NCBI GenBank assembly: GCA_028684065.1
Contig: JAQUGO010000001.1
Coordinates: 372,001 to 436,000 of the forward strand
Source: Sulfurospirillaceae bacterium
GTDB lineage: Bacteria > Campylobacterota > Campylobacteria > Campylobacterales > Sulfurospirillaceae
Length of the DNA stretch: 64,000 bases
Direction of reading: 5' to 3'
Position numbers and translations under genes: made by a program. The stretch's first letter is position 1; every line of letters begins with the position of its first letter. Below the pieces are notes generated by a model, which saw nothing but the letters and a program-made list of their open reading frames with translations, was not told where the DNA came from and did no database searches. This document shows positions 38,857 to 56,227 of the stretch, in pieces.

Positions 38857-38920
38857 TAATTAAATATTTTAAAAACTTTGTGTAAAATAGCTGGAAATAT
38901 TGAAACATGTAAGGAAAAAA

Positions 38921-39373
38921 ATGAATAATGACCTTATTGCTGATAAAGCAGTAGCGTATTTTAATGACGGTTTTTTATGTTCAGAATCTGTTTTAATGGC
39001 TTTAGCAGAAGCTTATGGAATTGACTCACCACACGTTCCTTCCATCGCAACAGCCTTTGGAAGTGGGCTTTCACAAACCAATGGCCCATGCGGTGCTTTA
39101 AGTGGAGGTATCTTGGCTCTGTCTCTCCTTCACGGGCGTAATAAAGAAAAACAAGATTATGCACAACTGTATAAAAATGTCGCTCTGCTGCAAAAGATCT
39201 TTAACGAAAAGTTTGCCTCAACCGCTTGTACCCAACTCCTAGGTTTTTCAATGGCTGATAGCGATGCAAGCGAAAAATTTACCAAAAATGAATGCAAAAA
39301 AAATACATGCAACCATTGTGTACGTTATGTTGTGGAAGAAGTACAGCACATACTTTCTTCTCAAAAAGCTTAG
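38921..39373 (+). CDS. C_GCAxxG_C_C family redox-type protein
   Basis: 150 residues from the ATG that follows AAGGA. Features match the C_GCAxxG_C_C family: FLCSESVLMALAEAYG, ATAFGSGLSQTNGPCGALSGGILAL, a Cys in ACTQLLGF, and the C-terminal ECKKNTCNHCVRYVVE cluster. The usual GCA reads CGA here. These small proteins are thought to bind metal or take part in redox chemistry; no role is established. It is divergent from napA and shares its control region, with TAAAAT as a candidate -10, so co-regulation with nitrate respiration is possible. Confidence 0.78.
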   Translation: MNNDLIADKAVAYFNDGFLCSESVLMALAEAYGIDSPHVPSIATAFGSGLSQTNGPCGALSGGILALSLLHGRNKEKQDYAQLYKNVALLQKIFNEKFASTACTQLLGFSMADSDASEKFTKNECKKNTCNHCVRYVVEEVQHILSSQKA

Positions 39374-44833: not shown

Positions 44834-47815
44834 TTAAAATATCGGACACTCTTTGCCGTAGCAATACTGGTTAAACTTCTTCTGGTCACATGTGACATCA
44901 ACTTCGGCTAAAAGCTTGACATGTAAGAACTTTTCAGAGAGTTTTGAAGCGATTTTTAACGCTGTCCAGACTTCACGGTGACAACAACGAGCTGCTTCGT
45001 ATTCGACGATTTTGCCAAGGACGGCATGTGTTACTTTTTGCGCGGTTGTACGTGCGTGGGAAGCGACAGGTGAGGATTCTAACAAAATAGCAAAGCCGAT
45101 ACCCACACCCGATGCCGCACCGCAAATACCTAAAAAACCACATGAGCCACCTATCACACTTGAACCTCGGGAAAGTGCTGTTTTAAGAGCACTTTTAGGA
45201 AGTTTTCCACCGCTATTACGATACGCTGTCACGATAATGGCAGGCACCATAGCATGATGTTCAGGTCCATGTTTTGGGATACTTGGATGCTCTCTTATCT
45301 GCCTAAAAAGCTTGAGCATATCTTTTTCATATGAATTTTCGCACAAATGCTCAATCACACTTAACGCTTCTTTACTATGGCATGCATCGCACACATAATG
45401 TCCCGATTCGCATGTCACACTCGTAGAGCTTGTAATCCCGCAATAATAGCACTCTGCTCTCTCTTCGTTAGTCTTATAGACTAACGCACTTTGGCACACC
45501 ATACAATTATGCATCTTTTTGGGAGAAAGATAAAAGGTCACTTTGGGCGTCGTTTTGAGTTCGGGTGGCAGAGCACATGCACATGTTTGTTCTTCTTGAT
45601 TGGTGACATTTCCCTTATCATCCACAATAAAGAACTCATCGCTGTAATGTTCTGCTATATTTTGAGGTAAATAACCTTTTTCACCTTGCATAATAATTGT
45701 ATCTTCGAGTATAAAGGCATCATGATTTCCTCTATATATCACGGCAACAGGCATGTCGTTTTTAGGTTTGTACGCCATAAAACTTAAAGAATAAAAGGGA
45801 TGTCCCTCAATAATACGATACACAAAACGTTTTAACAAACGGATGTCACGAAAACCGCTCTCTCGCAACAAGCCAACCAAATGAGTTTGGCTCAGAGCTC
45901 CTGCGATACATTCTCCGCTTAGCTTGGCATCATTACGTATTTTGGCGCTGGGTTCATCTTCACATACCACATCCGAAACCACCAATCGGCCACCTGGTTT
46001 GAGCACTCTAAATATCTCTGCAAAAAGATTTCGTTTATGATTGGAAAGATTAAGCACACAATTAGACGTAACGACATCATACGCATTTGCTTTTTCAGGC
46101 AAAGCTTCGATATACCCTTTGACAAAAGAGAGATTGGCATATCCTAAATTTTGTGCGATAGGTTCAATTCCTTCATGCGCTAGTGTTAGCATTGAATCCA
46201 ACATATCAACACCGCGAACATGCCCACTACGACCTACTAATTTTGAAGCGATAAAACACTCAATGCCTCGTCCTGACCCCAAATCCAACATCGCCTCGCC
46301 CTCTTTAAGATTGGCTTCTAAGATGGGACTGCCACAGCCATATCCACGAAAACGTAAGTGAGGAGGAATGTGTTGCAGGTACGATTCTTCATAGCATACG
46401 GGATTTAAAATATCCTCTTTAGTATCTAAAGCGGCTTCGTTGTAAAAGGATTTGACCAAACGAAGCGATGCGTTTTCCCCTGTTGCAATTAAGCAATTGG
46501 CATGCGTATGCGCCACACCTTCATGAGCGCCACAGCGGTACAGTACGTCTCCCATTTCTAATTTCACATGTGCCTCGTGGGCATGTAAAGCATACTTTTT
46601 AGCTTCGGACGTGATAAGCCAAAGAGCCAATTGTTCCAAAACAATTTCATAAGGGTCATTGCCCATAAATGTTTTAGCATGCATATAACTATGATCCAAA
46701 TCTCCACCGCCTAAGATAAAGCGAAGCGGATGTGTAAGAGAAAGAACACTTTGCGATTGAATCTTCTGAGCGATACGGCAATGCAATGCTTCTTCAATAC
46801 TACGCCCATGCATACACACCTCATCGATACCAACGAGTGCCGCACTTGGGTAAAACTTCCCATCAAATCCTAATGCAAGAGAGTTTCTACCCGAACTTGA
46901 ACCATCATGTACCGTACCTTTAGGAGCATAGATTTGTGTTTTAAGGGCTTCAATATTGTCAATCACAATACCTAGCTTTTCAGCTTTTTCATGAGCTTCA
47001 ATAAGGATTTTGACAAGTTTTTTAGGTTCAATATAATCCTCTTTACCACCTCTACCACGAATAAAGTACCAAAGCAGATGTAAGTGCTTCGCGCCTAAAG
47101 ATTCGACTAACGTCACTAATTCATCCATAGTTTGAATATTTGTCGGATGCAAACATACAGAGAGTGAAAAAAGATAACCATTAGCGGTAAGCCATACTAA
47201 ATTATGTTTAAGTTTATCAAAGCTACCATTTCCGCGTAAGCTATCGTGCTGTTTTGGCAACCCATCTAAGCTGATTTGAAAATGCAACCGCTCTTTTGGA
47301 AAATCCTTACGTGTCAAGATTTTTTCCAGCAAAAGTCCATTGGTCAAAATCACAACTTCCGTTCCCTTCATTGCCAAAATCGTCTCTATGACTGCAAGAA
47401 TTTCAGGATGAACCAAAGGTTCGCCCCCACTGAGGATAAAAAGTCTACATCCTAATGCGTAGGCTTCTTGAAGATATTTTTGTATCGTTTCAAGGCATAA
47501 AGTATCTTTTTCTTTGGGTGATGAGGAAAAAAGGCAATGGCTACATGTAAGGTTACAACGGTTAGTAAGATGTATCCAAAACTCGTCTAAATGAGGTGTA
47601 TGAGGGGCATGCACATACGCTGGAGGTTTGGGTAAGCGTGCGCGTAATTTGCGATAGGCTATACTTTGAGTATCACCCCTTTGTAAAAGGCCATCGGCTT
47701 TAGTATCAGGTACGAACCAATCCGCTCCTTTTTGGTACACATAGACACTTCTACCTTCATAACTCAGCCTTGCCCAATCCTTTATACTTTCATTACTTTT
47801 TTGAATGCTCTTCAT
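44834..47815 (-). CDS. Triple fusion: radical SAM + ArsM-like methyltransferase + Cys/His-rich DUF5714-like module
   Basis: About 993 residues from the ATG; a GTG eight codons upstream is possible, and residue numbers count from it. (1) Residues about 85-380: radical SAM domain, cluster motif CNLTCSHC (Cys95/99/102), FILSGGEPLVHPE, QISLDG. (2) Residues about 497-690: methyltransferase with LDLGSGRGIE. It keeps the arsenite-methyltransferase context YGCGSP (Cys502), SNCVLNL (Cys594), FRVLKPGGRLVVSDVV and GECIAGAL (Cys644), matching the three As-binding Cys of ArsM. (3) Residues about 778-1001: CMVC, CYYC, GHYVCDAC and HGPEHHAMVPAIIV, resembling DUF5714. Last gene of a rhodanese-TVP38-CCG-TVP38 operon, overlapping the previous gene. 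I infer radical-SAM-based organoarsenic or related sugar chemistry. Confidence 0.8.
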   Translation of the reverse strand: MKSIQKSNESIKDWARLSYEGRSVYVYQKGADWFVPDTKADGLLQRGDTQSIAYRKLRARLPKPPAYVHAPHTPHLDEFWIHLTNRCNLTCSHCLFSSSPKEKDTLCLETIQKYLQEAYALGCRLFILSGGEPLVHPEILAVIETILAMKGTEVVILTNGLLLEKILTRKDFPKERLHFQISLDGLPKQHDSLRGNGSFDKLKHNLVWLTANGYLFSLSVCLHPTNIQTMDELVTLVESLGAKHLHLLWYFIRGRGGKEDYIEPKKLVKILIEAHEKAEKLGIVIDNIEALKTQIYAPKGTVHDGSSSGRNSLALGFDGKFYPSAALVGIDEVCMHGRSIEEALHCRIAQKIQSQSVLSLTHPLRFILGGGDLDHSYMHAKTFMGNDPYEIVLEQLALWLITSEAKKYALHAHEAHVKLEMGDVLYRCGAHEGVAHTHANCLIATGENASLRLVKSFYNEAALDTKEDILNPVCYEESYLQHIPPHLRFRGYGCGSPILEANLKEGEAMLDLGSGRGIECFIASKLVGRSGHVRGVDMLDSMLTLAHEGIEPIAQNLGYANLSFVKGYIEALPEKANAYDVVTSNCVLNLSNHKRNLFAEIFRVLKPGGRLVVSDVVCEDEPSAKIRNDAKLSGECIAGALSQTHLVGLLRESGFRDIRLLKRFVYRIIEGHPFYSLSFMAYKPKNDMPVAVIYRGNHDAFILEDTIIMQGEKGYLPQNIAEHYSDEFFIVDDKGNVTNQEEQTCACALPPELKTTPKVTFYLSPKKMHNCMVCQSALVYKTNEERAECYYCGITSSTSVTCESGHYVCDACHSKEALSVIEHLCENSYEKDMLKLFRQIREHPSIPKHGPEHHAMVPAIIVTAYRNSGGKLPKSALKTALSRGSSVIGGSCGFLGICGAASGVGIGFAILLESSPVASHARTTAQKVTHAVLGKIVEYEAARCCHREVWTALKIASKLSEKFLHVKLLAEVDVTCDQKKFNQYCYGKECPIF

Positions 47816-48440
47816 ACCTATCCAATCGTTTTTTAACACTATTTTTTAACACCATTGAGAACACCACTAAAAACAGTAACAACGCTACGGCCATATAGAA
47901 CTCTTTGGTTCCAAAAGCCAGAGACTTCGCACCAATATTAGCATAGACTAAAACTCCTGGACTCATACCTAAAAGGGTCGCAAAGAAAAAATCACGATAG
48001 CGTATCGTTGAAAATCCAGCAGAGTAACTGATGATATTAAAAGGGACTAAAGGGACCAAACGTAATAAAAAAATCATAATAAATCCGTGGTTTTTAACAC
48101 TTTTTTGAAAATGAATCCATTTTTCATGGGCTAGTTTATCTCGCAACCATGTGCCATACGTTCGAGCGAGGTAAAAAGACAAACTTCCCCCACATAAAGC
48201 GCCGATAATGATATAAACACTTCCTGCATAAAAGCCAAAGATAAGCCCACCTGCAAGTGCCAAAATACCATCAGGAAAAAAAATAAGTGGTGCGAGAGTA
48301 AACAGTAAGATAAAAACCAAGGGAGCCAATAAGCCAAAGCTAAGCACAAAGGTTTTAATTGTTTCAACTTGTTGAAACGATAAAACACCCATCTTATAAA
48401 AAACAATCATCAACGCACTAAAAAGGGCAAACATTATCAA
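47793..48440 (-). CDS. TVP38/TMEM64 family membrane protein (second in operon)
   Basis: 215 residues with about six hydrophobic segments. The VTT/DedA-type core includes FFPDGILALAGGLIFGFYAGSVY, GALCGGSLSFYLARTYG, and RLVPLVPFNIISYSAGFSTIRYRDFFFATLLGMSPGVLVYANIGA. These are the family's re-entrant loops with conserved Gly, Arg and Pro. Family roles involve lipid or small-molecule movement across membranes. Start shares ATGA with the CCG oxidoreductase stop, and its end overlaps the radical SAM gene. It resembles the TVP38 protein encoded two genes upstream. Confidence 0.85.
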   Translation of the reverse strand: MIMFALFSALMIVFYKMGVLSFQQVETIKTFVLSFGLLAPLVFILLFTLAPLIFFPDGILALAGGLIFGFYAGSVYIIIGALCGGSLSFYLARTYGTWLRDKLAHEKWIHFQKSVKNHGFIMIFLLRLVPLVPFNIISYSAGFSTIRYRDFFFATLLGMSPGVLVYANIGAKSLAFGTKEFYMAVALLLFLVVFSMVLKNSVKKRLDRYEEHSKK

Positions 48441-49549
48441 TTTTTTAATGATGTATCCTTCAACATTGTTATCATCCGACGAGATTGGTAACGGTTATAC
48501 CATTTTTTGAAACTGCCTTGCTCCACTTGTTGACTTGGCATAGTAGGCGCAAAGATAAAATCCAAAAGGTGTAACCCATTTTTGCCCCCTTTACTCATAG
48601 ACTCAGTACAACTTTGACAATAGCTCACAATACTCTCACACTGGGTTTGGTTGGCGCGTGTGTGCATTTGTTCATAAGCTAAAACTGGATTTGTCAGTTC
48701 TAACATGCCGCCACTACCACAACATAGGGTTTTTTCACGATTCGCTTTAAATTCTTCGAAAGGCAAACCAATAGTATGCATAAGAGCTCGTACATCTTTA
48801 TGAATTTTACTCTCAAAACGGGTTGGACACGGGTCGTGCAATGCCACTTTGGGTAGATTAGTGTAACGTCCAACCATTTCTTTGGGTACACCAATCTCAT
48901 TGAGCACCGAGTAAAGCGAAACAATGTTGATATGCGGGGCATTGTTTTTGATGCTCATATAGCAGTTTTCACAAGCCGTCACCACGGTTGTCGCTCCCAT
49001 AGCAGCGAGGTCAGTCTCAAGCTGTGTATGATACTTTTGAAACTGCTCTATGTCCCCCATCATACGTGTTGGCGTTCCACAACATTGCTGAATGATACCA
49101 ATTCCTGAAAGCTTAGACCGCAAATAATCAAAAATCGTATAAACCAATTTTGGCGAATACGAAGCAAGAGCACACCCTGGCATAAATGCCATATGCGTGT
49201 ACTCACCTTGGGTAAATTTTTTGGTCGTCGAAAAAAGTTTTGAAAAACTACTTTTTTGGTGAAAGACCACGGCACCGTATCCGTATTTTTTCAAAACATT
49301 TTTTTGCGTTGCGTACTCATTTTTCGACTGGGTAAACACTTCACCAAAGTCAATATCTTTAGGACATACTTGGGCGCAAAGACCACATGTTGCGCATGAA
49401 AAAGCCATTGATGCTATTGGCTTTTGGGTCGTAAAATGATGCAAAAGTATTTTGGGAGAGACTGTAAAACTATAAAGCATAGGACATCCCTTCATACAGC
49501 TTTTACAATCAATACACTCTTCGTGAAATTTAGTAATTTTAACGTCCAC
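48437..49549 (-). CDS. (Fe-S)-binding oxidoreductase with two CCG domains (GlpC/HdrB-like)
   Basis: 370 residues. N-terminal two [4Fe-4S] sites: CIDCKSCMKGCPML and CATCGLCAQVCPKDI. Then two cysteine-rich CCG domains, seen as PGCALASYSPKL...QQCCGTPTRMMG...CENCYMSI and HDPCPTRFESK...LCCGSGGMLELTNP...SYCQSCTESM. This layout occurs in heterodisulfide reductase HdrD, GlpC and LutA. Substrate unknown; thiol/disulfide or quinone-linked oxidoreduction is expected. It overlaps the upstream TVP38 gene by 11 bp and the downstream one by 4 bp. Confidence 0.87.
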   Translation of the reverse strand: MDVKITKFHEECIDCKSCMKGCPMLYSFTVSPKILLHHFTTQKPIASMAFSCATCGLCAQVCPKDIDFGEVFTQSKNEYATQKNVLKKYGYGAVVFHQKSSFSKLFSTTKKFTQGEYTHMAFMPGCALASYSPKLVYTIFDYLRSKLSGIGIIQQCCGTPTRMMGDIEQFQKYHTQLETDLAAMGATTVVTACENCYMSIKNNAPHINIVSLYSVLNEIGVPKEMVGRYTNLPKVALHDPCPTRFESKIHKDVRALMHTIGLPFEEFKANREKTLCCGSGGMLELTNPVLAYEQMHTRANQTQCESIVSYCQSCTESMSKGGKNGLHLLDFIFAPTMPSQQVEQGSFKKWYNRYQSRRMITMLKDTSLKN

Positions 49550-50204
49550 GATAGGTCCTCTTAATCAAATAAACAAAAATTGTAACTGCAAACAAAATAA
49601 GCATGCCATATACTGCGGTTTGAAGGCCACCACTAAGCATCTCTCCTGCATACGAATAAACAAGGGTTGCGGGTAGTTGCCCAATACCCGTTGCTACGAT
49701 AAATGCACCTAAACGCATACTCGTAAGCCCAGCGGCATAACTGACCACATCAAAAGAGATAAAGGGTAGAAGTCTGGCAATTAAAATCGCATATACTCCA
49801 TGTTTTTCGAAAAAAGCGTCCACACTCTCTAGTGCCATTTTACTGGTCAGTTTTTGAACCGTTTCACGACCCAAAAATTTAGCAATGTAAAAACACAATA
49901 CCGCTCCGACCATCGCACTTGCCCATGAAAGCATCGCGCCATAAACCCAGCCAAACAGTGCCGCATTGGCAAAGGTAATCAAAAAAGCAGGTAATGGTGC
50001 CATAACCGATTGAAATACCATCAAACCAAAAGACACGAAGGGTGCTAAAAGGCCAAACGAGAGAATATACACCTTGATTTTTTCAATATCAAGCGTTTGA
50101 AATAAATCAATAAGCATCAAAAAATAATTTCGACTCGTTGGTAAAAGCATGAGAAGAAGGATACCGCCTAAAAGCAGTATCCATAGCGTCATTTTTTTTG
50201 ACAT
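49539..50204 (-). CDS. TVP38/TMEM64 family membrane protein (first in operon)
   Basis: 221 residues, about six hydrophobic segments. Core motifs: SVMAPLPAFLITFANAALFGWVYG, ASAMVGAVLCFYIAKFLGRE, and IARLLPFISFDVVSYAAGLTSMRLGAFIVATGIGQLPATLVYSYAGE. Related to, but clearly diverged from, the second TVP38 protein of the operon. Its start codon shares TAATG with the stop of the rhodanese lipoprotein gene, so it is translationally coupled to it. A pair of TVP38 proteins flanking an Fe-S oxidoreductase suggests a membrane-linked complex (inference). Confidence 0.85.
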   Translation of the reverse strand: MSKKMTLWILLLGGILLLMLLPTSRNYFLMLIDLFQTLDIEKIKVYILSFGLLAPFVSFGLMVFQSVMAPLPAFLITFANAALFGWVYGAMLSWASAMVGAVLCFYIAKFLGRETVQKLTSKMALESVDAFFEKHGVYAILIARLLPFISFDVVSYAAGLTSMRLGAFIVATGIGQLPATLVYSYAGEMLSGGLQTAVYGMLILFAVTIFVYLIKRTYRGR

Positions 50205-50644
50205 TATTGGGCTAAAACATCTTTAATTTTATCACGTGGCCAGCCATATTGACCATCTTTGAGCGTTAAAAGATTCTCTTTTTTAACACCATGGGATAAG
50301 TAAAAATCATATGCTCTATCTGCACCCCCACCACCTCTTGGACAAACGATAATAACCTTTTGATCAGGCTTAATCTCCGGTAAAAGCGCTGCTAACCGTT
50401 CTTTTTCCTCATCTGTTTTAACAGGATACGCATACGTAGAGATAGCACCTTTTAAATGTTCCTCACCAAAGTCTGGTTTTTCTTGGATATCAATCAAAAC
50501 TAATTTTGAAGCATCTTCACGTATCAACTTAGCTGTTTCATCCGCCGTAATGTAGTTGTATTTTGGATTTTCTTTGACTTTACCGCCACAACCTATAAGC
50601 AATAAAAGTGCAAAGGGCAATACCAACCATTGTGCAATTTTCAT
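50204..50644 (-). CDS. Rhodanese-domain lipoprotein
   Basis: 146 residues. N-terminal MKIAQWLVLPFALLLLIGC is a lipoprotein signal with lipobox LIGC, so the protein is anchored at the periplasmic side. The body is a rhodanese fold (KLVLIDIQEKPDFGEEHLKGAI, KVIIVCPRGGGGADRAYDFY) with Cys in the active loop CPRGGGGA and the late GQYGW. Would bind or transfer sulfur (or a chalcogen analogue). First gene of the radical SAM/TVP38 operon with AAGGAGA before the ATG, divergent from the solute-binding protein gene across a 209-bp region. Confidence 0.87.
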   Translation of the reverse strand: MKIAQWLVLPFALLLLIGCGGKVKENPKYNYITADETAKLIREDASKLVLIDIQEKPDFGEEHLKGAISTYAYPVKTDEEKERLAALLPEIKPDQKVIIVCPRGGGGADRAYDFYLSHGVKKENLLTLKDGQYGWPRDKIKDVLAQ

Positions 50645-53882: not shown

Positions 53883-54938
53883 ATGCCTTTATTCGATGTT
53901 TTAGAGTATATCCATTCCACGCCTATTTTAAAAGCATATTTTGGTATGGAGCCTTTACAGATTAAGGAAATAGGTGATGGTAATCTCAATTTTATTTTTA
54001 GAGTAGGCACACCATACAAAAGTCTTATCATCAAATATGCCCCTCCCTATCTTCGGTTGCTAGGTAAAAATTTTAAACTCCCACAAGAGAGAGTTTGTGT
54101 TGAAATGCACACCATGTCTTACTTTAAATCCATAGCCCCAGAGTATCTCCCCACTATTTATCACCTCGATGAGAAAGCATTTTTATTCGCGATGGAGGAT
54201 TTAGAAGGATTTGAGACTTTACAAAAAATGCGACTAGATAAAAATATTTCTACTGAAGTCTATGAAAAACTAGGCGATTTTTTAAAAAAAGTCTATACAC
54301 ATACACCGCCTTTACATGCACGTGACTATTATGAAAATGCTACCCTGAAACAAATCAGTGAAAACTATATATTTCGTTTTCCTCATATAGCCAACCATGA
54401 AGCGCTTTGCGTACCAGAATTTTTTAAACCACTTCCAAAAGATGAAGCCTTTTTGGAAGGGATAAAAGCCTTAACCCATCTTTTTTTATATGCCAATGAA
54501 ACTCTTATCCATGGGGATTTGCATACTGGCTCTGTGATGATAAAAGAAAATACCATCGCTATTATTGATGCAGAATTTTCTTTTTTTGGACCAGTAGGTT
54601 TTGATATGGGAAATCTCTTTGCACACATTCTTTTTGGTGAAATTTATGCTTTGTTAGAAGGTAAAATTGTTGACTGGGAAGAAGCTATTCGTACACTATG
54701 GCAAGGTTTTGGTGGCAATGAAAAAATCCTACAAAGTAGTGTGGGTTTTTGTGGCGCTGAACTTTTCCGCCGTTTACTTGTACCTTCTAAAGCTAAACCT
54801 TTAGAAGCTATAACCCAGCAAAAGCATAAAGAAAAAGCGTATCATTTGGTTGATGCCCTTTGTATTGATTTGGTTTCAAACTATACCCATATCACGCATA
54901 TCGAAGATTTCCTTACACGTCTCAAAAGGTATCTATGA
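53883..54938 (+). CDS. S-methyl-5-thioribose kinase-like sugar kinase (MtnK family)
   Basis: 351 residues of the aminoglycoside-phosphotransferase/MtnK fold. IKEIGDGNLNFIFRV is the MtnK nucleotide-binding loop, followed by SLIIKYAPPYLR, the Brenner-type catalytic motif LIHGDLHTGSVMI and metal motif IIDAEFSFFGPVGFDMGNLFAHI (DAEF where MtnK usually has DPEF). MtnK phosphorylates methylthioribose at C1. No other methionine-salvage gene is adjacent; the next gene (overlapping by 4 bp) is a double glycosyltransferase tied to arsenosugar loci. A 5-substituted ribose other than methylthioribose, such as an arsenical one, is therefore a plausible substrate (inference). Confidence 0.82.
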   Translation: MPLFDVLEYIHSTPILKAYFGMEPLQIKEIGDGNLNFIFRVGTPYKSLIIKYAPPYLRLLGKNFKLPQERVCVEMHTMSYFKSIAPEYLPTIYHLDEKAFLFAMEDLEGFETLQKMRLDKNISTEVYEKLGDFLKKVYTHTPPLHARDYYENATLKQISENYIFRFPHIANHEALCVPEFFKPLPKDEAFLEGIKALTHLFLYANETLIHGDLHTGSVMIKENTIAIIDAEFSFFGPVGFDMGNLFAHILFGEIYALLEGKIVDWEEAIRTLWQGFGGNEKILQSSVGFCGAELFRRLLVPSKAKPLEAITQQKHKEKAYHLVDALCIDLVSNYTHITHIEDFLTRLKRYL

Positions 54939-56227
54939 ATCAAAATGCCCTCATCTATTTTATCAAAGCACCCCTTTTAGGTAAAGTTAAAACGCGTCTT
55001 GCTAAAAGCATTGGCGACGAAATGGCGCGTATGTTTTACGAATCCTTTGTAAAACGACTTTTGAGTCGTCAACCTCAAAACTGTGATATTTTGATTGCAT
55101 ATGATGATGGTGGGCTACCATGCAAACTCCCTACCTATTTGGAAAATCGCACGCTTTTTTTACAAGCCAAAGGCGATTTAGGGTATAAAATGAGTGACTC
55201 TTTTAAGCACGTTTTCAACCTTGGATACACCCAAGCTATACTAGTAGGTTCCGATATTCCTGACGTGGATGAAGTGGTTTTAGAAGAGGCTTTAAGCCTG
55301 TTAAATGATAGTGATGCGGTGCTCTGCCCTACTTTTGATGGCGGCTATTATCTGATTGGGTTTCATGCAAAGACCTTTACATGTAAAGCTTTCGAAGGCA
55401 TTATGTATAGTCAAAATGATGTTTTTGCCAAAACGCTACAACAACTCTACCCTTTGCATGTAAAGCACGGGAAGATGCTTAGAGACATTGATACGCTTGA
55501 TGATATCAAAGCCTACGCACCACAGATTTTGCCACAACTTCCACACATCAGCGTTATCATTCCGGTCTATTATGAAGATGAAACATTGCTTCAAACGATT
55601 AAAACAATACACCAAAATGCAGAGCAAAATAACTTCGAAGTCATCGTCATTGACACACTTGAAAATACCACACTCAATCGTTTACAAGTCAAGGATAAGG
55701 ATAGTCGAATAGGATTTGCACCTAAAGGTAGAGCCTCGCAGATGAATGAAGGAGCACTCATGGCACAAGGTGACATTCTTATTTTTGTGCACGCCGACAC
55801 GCACCTTCCAAAAGCATGGGATACCTTGATTGAAAAAGCCTTACATGCAAACAAAGCAGGCGCATTTTCACTCGGCATTGACGACACGCATTACGCCCTT
55901 CGCGTTATCGAAACCATGGCAAATATTCGCACAAGAATGACGAAAATCCCCTACGGCGACCAAGTCCATTTTTTGACCGCATCGTTTTTTAAAGAACTAG
56001 GTTACTACGCAAAAATCCCTTTGATGGAAGATGTAGAGCTAATGAAACGCATCAAAAAACAAGGTGAGCCAATCGCCCTTTTGAAGGAAAAAGTCTTAAC
56101 ATCATCACGAAGATGGCATAAAGAAGGCATTTTTTACACTACACTTCGAAACCGAGTTATCAGCTTTTTATATTGGGTAGGCATTCATCCAAAGCACTTC
56201 ATAAAGCGTTATAAATCGCACCGTTAA
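54935..56227 (+). CDS. Fusion of TIGR04282 and TIGR04283 glycosyltransferases
   Basis: 430 residues. The N-terminal about 195 match the TIGR04282 (CofC-like nucleotidyl/glycosyltransferase) family: FIKAPLLGKVKTRLAKSIG, ILVGSDIPDV, CPTFDGGYYLIGFH, RDIDTLDDI. The C-terminal about 230 match TIGR04283 (GT2): ISVIIPVYYEDETL, PKGRASQMNEGALMAQGDILIFVHADTHLP, PYGDQVHFLTASFFKELGY, MEDVELMKRIKKQG. Both families were named as rSAM/selenodomain-associated transferases and are now annotated with arsenosugar biosynthesis. The start overlaps the kinase stop (ATGA). Last gene of its operon. Expected to attach or process a sugar made by the neighbouring enzymes. Confidence 0.87.
   Translation: MNQNALIYFIKAPLLGKVKTRLAKSIGDEMARMFYESFVKRLLSRQPQNCDILIAYDDGGLPCKLPTYLENRTLFLQAKGDLGYKMSDSFKHVFNLGYTQAILVGSDIPDVDEVVLEEALSLLNDSDAVLCPTFDGGYYLIGFHAKTFTCKAFEGIMYSQNDVFAKTLQQLYPLHVKHGKMLRDIDTLDDIKAYAPQILPQLPHISVIIPVYYEDETLLQTIKTIHQNAEQNNFEVIVIDTLENTTLNRLQVKDKDSRIGFAPKGRASQMNEGALMAQGDILIFVHADTHLPKAWDTLIEKALHANKAGAFSLGIDDTHYALRVIETMANIRTRMTKIPYGDQVHFLTASFFKELGYYAKIPLMEDVELMKRIKKQGEPIALLKEKVLTSSRRWHKEGIFYTTLRNRVISFLYWVGIHPKHFIKRYKSHR

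Follow-up and report, generated by a model that had tools for sequence, protein, structure and literature searches.

A three-part fusion at the end of a conserved operon

The window analysed here (64,000 nucleotides of a Sulfurospirillaceae genome) carries on its reverse strand a single open reading frame, starting with GTG and encoding 1001 amino acids, in which a radical SAM domain, an ArsM-type methyltransferase and a DUF5714 domain are joined (hereafter referred to as the fusion; Table 1). The chain runs from an N-terminal stretch through the radical SAM core, the ArsM part and a Cys/His-rich stretch to DUF5714. The start used in the earlier note (position 47815) is an internal ATG, corresponding to M9 of the fusion, and homologues begin still further in. 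The fusion was confirmed to be real and conserved: it is kept at 62–70% identity in Sulfurospirillum and other Campylobacterota, which places it far beyond chance. An AlphaFold model of the full-length chain had a mean pLDDT of 53, too poor for domain contacts. At one locus (G005, L020), a frame change rather than a lone TGA interrupts the coding sequence between residues ~737 and 748, just upstream of DUF5714, reflecting either a sequencing error or a gene split. Two other possibilities were discarded: a selenoprotein, the fusion gene of the window having no Sec codon, and a defence function, the PADLOC matches being only to a generic methyltransferase and a viperin-like radical SAM protein.

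The fusion closes an operon with the order rhodanese-VTT-dicluster-VTT-fusion. A fused TIGR04282/TIGR04283 gene is its neighbour in the window and in relatives. In most relatives, the operon and the kinase/transferase pair are directly divergent; in the window, they are separated by two inserted genes, one for a binding protein and one for a GGDEF protein. At five loci (L002, L010, L011, L133 and L134), a NitT/TauT-type ABC transporter is encoded directly downstream of the fusion. It resembles SaoX/SaoP/SaoA of the SAO organometallic system, at a score under the cutoff in the copy tested (L010), and is possibly an organoarsenical importer.

Table 1. Positions of the fusion, its sequence features and its neighbours within the window.
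Feature	Position	Strand	Evidence or remark
rSAM-ArsM-DUF5714 fusion, 1001 aa	44834..47839	(-)	GTG start 47839; alternative ATG 47815
Radical SAM core, residues 90-244	47108..47572	(-)	PF04055 5.6e-18; not TIGR04167/ArsS
C95xxxC99xxC102, 4Fe-4S/SAM motif CNLTCSHC	47534..47557	(-)	Invariant in fusions
HDGSSSGR..LGFDGKFYPSAALVG, residues 311-338	46826..46909	(-)	SPASM/twitch-like, Ser for Cys (sequence inference)
Full ArsM part with C-terminal CxC, residues ~461-756	45572..46459	(-)	Profile, phmmer, Foldseek, alignment
C482, ~ first conserved ArsM Cys	46394..46396	(-)	Alignment approximate
C502 = CmArsM C72	46334..46336	(-)	phmmer alignment; invariant
C594 = CmArsM C174	46058..46060	(-)	phmmer alignment; invariant
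C644 = CmArsM C224	45908..45910	(-)	phmmer alignment; invariant
Cys/His-rich, zinc-ribbon-like stretch, residues 779-821	45377..45505	(-)	Invariant Cys in fusions and Firmicutes DUF5714 proteins
DUF5714, residues 829-1000; HGPEHH, CGFxGxCGA, RCC	44840..45355	(-)	PF18978 5.9e-56
VTT/DedA-type membrane protein, same operon	47793..48440	(-)	PF09335; conserved order
Fe-S dicluster/CCG protein, NF045663-like, same operon	48437..49549	(-)	Profiles; conserved order
Second VTT/DedA-type membrane protein	49539..50204	(-)	Profile; conserved order
Rhodanese lipoprotein, first operon gene	50204..50644	(-)	Profile; conserved order
MTR-kinase-like (APH fold) sugar kinase, divergent partner	53883..54938	(+)	TIGR01767 229.9 bits (cutoff 275), PF01636
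TIGR04282 + TIGR04283 fused "arsenosugar biosynthesis" transferase	54935..56227	(+)	Both above curated cutoff

The methyltransferase and radical SAM parts

The earlier note had taken three cysteines of the middle domain for the As(III)-binding triad of ArsM proteins, a claim that was to stand or fall with an alignment to ArsM proteins already studied. It survived: YGCGSP (C502), SNCVLNL (C594) and GECIAGAL (C644) aligned column for column with C72, C174 and C224 of CmArsM (phmmer against PDB sequences, E 4e-34), and these residues, together with C482, were invariant in all 31 fusions covering these positions. According to their PDB titles, 5eg5, 5jx7 and 4fsd represent C72A, C224A and the As(III) complex, respectively, of this same algal ArsM. 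The ArsM part also contains a class I SAM-binding motif (DLGSGRG, GVDM) and a Pfam match to Methyltransf_31 (residues 512–660, 4.2e-28), and the best Foldseek matches of the chain, with the low-confidence full model as the query, were ArsM/AS3MT structures. It thus shares with CmArsM (4fs8) and human AS3MT (8xt7) the three arsenic-binding cysteines, the SAM motif, the C-terminal domain and the CxC, but differs from them in being embedded in 1001 residues and in scoring under the NCBIfam whole-protein cutoff: 208 bits against PRK11873 (curated cutoff 263), the aligned stretch being residues 472–676 only, and 160 bits against the arsinothricin ArsM model NF040538 (cutoff 500).

The radical SAM core contains CxxxCxxC, in the form CNLTCSHC, and GGEP. 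The earlier view that this part is unlike ArsS was borne out by three features, on each of which membership of canonical ArsS failed. The score against TIGR04167 was 51.5 bits, for a cutoff of 300, with only the N-terminal half matched; no DUF3641 was found in the fusion by Pfam, whereas this domain was present in the ArsS-ArsM protein of G213 described below; and the motif region CNLTCSHCLFSSSP (CNLTCSHCLF, continuing as CLFSSSP) occupies the position at which ArsS has CNxxCxHCHVEAxP or CHIGASP. DUF5714 is a further addition with respect to ArsS. In the radical SAM tree, the fusion clade lay apart from the ArsS clade, the deep branches being weak. TrsS was rejected as an identity for the fusion, which scored 40 bits, the true TrsS being encoded elsewhere in the genome (669 bits, C3:72947).

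The closest radical SAM models were those of Rv1681, MftC, NirJ and other SPASM-type families, all well under cutoff. These matches would fit a radical SAM domain of SPASM-type maturase ancestry that modifies a protein or peptide, the ArsM part alone providing plain arsenic detoxification. We consider such an arrangement very unlikely, as the cluster, its small ORFs inspected only unsystematically, yielded no recognisable precursor peptide, the fusion appears to replace ArsS (see below), and the SPASM cysteines have apparently been lost. On inspection of the sequence, HDGSSSGR..LGFDGKFYPSAALVG has the appearance of a SPASM/twitch segment in which serine has taken the place of cysteine.

Distribution of ArsS and the fusion in Campylobacterota

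Each of the models PF18978, TIGR04283 and TIGR04167 was run against 397 Campylobacterota genomes, sampled alike. TIGR04283 was found in 32 genomes, with ArsS present in 17 and the full-length fusion in 15, every one of them TIGR04283-positive; none of the 32 contained both ArsS and the fusion, and none lacked both. Of the ten genera with TIGR04283, six contained only ArsS, two contained only the fusion, and two (g3 and g4) were mixed, each with one ArsS species and one fusion species. Fisher tests on this distribution gave extreme values, but the genomes are related and the genes linked, and co-occurrence is due in part to this physical linkage. We therefore place weight on the swaps within genera rather than on the Fisher values.

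The genus itself was surveyed with 24 genomes, less complete MAGs included. Canonical ArsS scored above the cutoff in one of them, and no ArsM match below 1e-20 was obtained in the 24 genomes other than the fusion and its second or partial copies, making the fusion the only strong ArsM domain in the genus. Two assemblies were exceptions to the pattern: an 86% complete, fragmented MAG (G019) contained two fusions and a canonical ArsS, with TIGR04283 absent, and TIGR04283 was also absent from a fragmented assembly with the fusion (G023). In line with the pattern, all that G001 retained of the fusion was a remnant of 49 residues, TIGR04283 having also been lost. A second TIGR04283 gene (L136, G018:C23) lies on a contig with genes unlike those of Sulfurospirillum, which is likely to be a contamination of the assembly.

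One of the genomes with ArsS, G213, belongs to the same genus as the fusion-bearing G387. Its rhodanese-VTT-dicluster-VTT operon is 55–84% identical to that of the window and is adjoined by genes for a pyridine-nucleotide-disulfide reductase and a 663-residue ArsS-ArsM protein; it has no rSAM-ArsM-DUF5714 fusion. Further ArsS-ArsM fusions were found in G358, G314 and G340, and all four of these proteins retain the three ArsM cysteines. The two-domain genes of the four Campylobacterota genomes are located at L118:7500-9491 (-), L120:9485-11506, L121:9087-11204 and L122:7080-9083 (-). No report of two-domain ArsS-ArsM fusions was found in the literature searched, which also contained nothing joining arsenosugar, radical SAM, methyltransferase and fusion in one paper.

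The fusion resembles the ArsS-ArsM proteins of related Campylobacterota in that the radical SAM part precedes ArsM on the chain, and resembles both ArsS and ArsS-ArsM in its gene neighbourhood with TIGR04282/TIGR04283; its distribution is complementary to that of ArsS. It appears to occupy the place of canonical ArsS or ArsS-ArsM in related clusters. Derivation of its ArsM part from ArsS-ArsM fusions was supported neither by identity (32–34% to the ArsM part of ArsS-ArsM, and 36–44% to free ArsM) nor by the ArsM tree, in which the two types of domain formed separate groups, some on long branches. An origin separate from that of ArsS-ArsM is probable for the rSAM-ArsM-DUF5714 fusion, and the simplest reading of these sequences would be that two independent radical SAM and ArsM fusions serve one pathway.

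DUF5714 and the proposed function

The fusion scored 189 bits against PF18978 (gathering score 26.2). The cysteine pairs and HGPEHH reported previously were found to be real: C779/782, C797/800 and C817/820 with C810, and further conserved cysteines, are retained in stand-alone Firmicutes proteins. The latter share with the fusion the Cys-rich N-terminal stretch, HGPEHH, CGFxGxCGA and RCC, but are ~230 residues long in Firmicutes records and not fused. The description of the chain as combining three chemistries was nevertheless too strong, because no chemistry is known for DUF5714, of which no mention was found in the literature searched. Modelled alone, the domain is mostly helical (AlphaFold pLDDT 76, pTM 0.80); no PDB fold matched this model above Z 5, an absence that does not amount to a new fold. 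A helper function, in arsenic handling or redox, is probable for DUF5714. A stand-alone DUF5714 gene was also observed on a viral contig (L144:4989-5690), flanked by apparent phage genes for terminase and portal proteins.

On Paraclostridium plasmids, the DUF5714 gene and arsM point in divergent directions, with acr3, a phosphoesterase gene and arsR coming after arsM in DSM 14991. In E. eligens, the DUF5714 gene lies between arsR (before) and a low-molecular-weight phosphatase gene (after). The arsM-acr3-MPPE-arsR1 operon of P. bifermentans strain EML shows this gene order too, and the strain actively methylates arsenic (PMC11653729). In another Paraclostridium plasmid (L040:5772-6530 (-)), the arsM beside the DUF5714 gene has an in-frame TGA at the third arsenic-binding cysteine (CG*VTGA) and is likely to encode a selenocysteine ArsM of a known kind. 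The arsR, acr3 and arsM neighbours, together with the retention of all three ArsM As(III) ligands in the fusion, argue against a methyl acceptor other than arsenic, be it selenium, tellurium or a thiol. A cluster of "rSAM/selenodomain" type devoted to chalcogen handling would be consistent with the rhodanese of the operon and with the matches to models found near selenoproteins (NF045663 for an operon partner, and MbdU, NF045648, for the DUF5714 part), but we judge it unlikely.

We instead consider it fairly probable that the fusion is a lineage-specific enzyme combining the roles of ArsM and ArsS in a single polypeptide. By homology, the middle domain would bind As(III) via C502, C594 and C644 and methylate it with SAM; the radical SAM domain, with a second SAM, would then form a carbon-arsenic bond on the methylated As(III), as the replacement of ArsS suggests. 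The group added would most likely be 5'-deoxyadenosyl, as with ArsS. DUF5714 may bind arsenic or thiols, supplying As(III) or keeping it reduced, and the divergent kinase and the TIGR04282/TIGR04283 transferases may convert the product to a glycoside, with putative membrane, electron or sulfur steps contributed by the VTT, dicluster and rhodanese proteins. The toxic trivalent methylarsenical would be held on the protein, and putative channelling between the domains, as proposed in the earlier note, is plausible.

The reaction of ArsS in arsenosugar biosynthesis is the adenosylation of arsenic, and that of ArsL the transfer of an aminocarboxypropyl group (cited in PMC12159101; PMC8552651). Given that the fusion takes the place of ArsS, we favour adenosyl transfer, with aminocarboxypropyl transfer to arsenic by the radical SAM part as its main rival. 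ArsL and ArsM are a known two-step pair giving a methylated organoarsenical (PMC8552651), in which, likewise, a radical SAM enzyme and ArsM form a non-methyl carbon-arsenic bond; ArsL, too, contains one CX3CX2C motif, and the ArsM part of the fusion does match the arsinothricin ArsM model, under its cutoff. However, the arsinothricin pair is encoded by separate genes with an ArsQ permease, TIGR04282/TIGR04283 not being reported there, whereas the neighbours of the fusion are the kinase, TIGR04282 and TIGR04283, with no arsQ permease-like gene recognised beside it. No ArsL model was present among the best 25 NCBIfam radical SAM matches of the fusion, and the fusion trades places with ArsS. We therefore regard an ArsL-type reaction as improbable.

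The fusion would be a variant within known organoarsenical biosynthesis and is a candidate for a further radical SAM enzyme forming carbon-arsenic bonds, a claim that can be tested. More tentatively, it might constitute a second radical SAM route, of independent evolutionary origin, to the carbon-arsenic bond of arsenosugar type; by this route, anaerobic Campylobacterota would convert arsenite to an arsenical bearing an adenosyl or other alkyl group, in a process in which a non-ArsS radical SAM domain, ArsM and a DUF5714 arsenic carrier are combined and toxic trivalent methylarsenicals are not released. The bacterial SAM-dependent enzymes making carbon-arsenic bonds named in PMC12159101 are ArsM, ArsS and ArsL; if our reading is true, the replacement of ArsS by another radical SAM subfamily, already fused to ArsM, would add a further such enzyme. 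The fusion would also provide a single-gene test of organoarsenical synthesis in anaerobes living with arsenic, and a functional lead for DUF5714.

"Arsenosugar" is the name of the NCBI models, not a product known from these organisms. In 13 genomes, ArsS is present without being joined to ArsM, and of these only G231 has a convincing ArsM, with a weak match (2e-14) in G311; the shared cluster can therefore run without an ArsM of its own, and the shared pathway need not begin from an ArsM product. The scarcity of ArsM and the origin of the label reduce our confidence in the exact product, the replacement of ArsS being less affected.

In seven clusters (L125, L126, L127, L128, L129, L130 and L131), a stand-alone canonical ArsS has a C_GCAxxG_C_C gene after or near it; these genomes have no convincing ArsM, which calls into question the arsenosugar label of the clusters. 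In each of the seven, which were all of the stand-alone-ArsS clusters inspected, the C_GCAxxG_C_C gene lies near ArsS or near its dicluster partner. DUF5714 shares the CGA motif with this family (PF09719), but its N-terminal cysteine is replaced, and the hhalign match (E 1e-4, probability 58%) is suggestive only. If this homology is real, DUF5714 might, hypothetically, be a fused form of the C_GCAxxG_C_C partner of ArsS. The window contains one C_GCAxxG_C_C gene (38900-39373 (+), 89 bits), ~5.5 kb from the fusion, and a second copy of this gene lies in the TrsS/TrsM cluster of the genome (C3).
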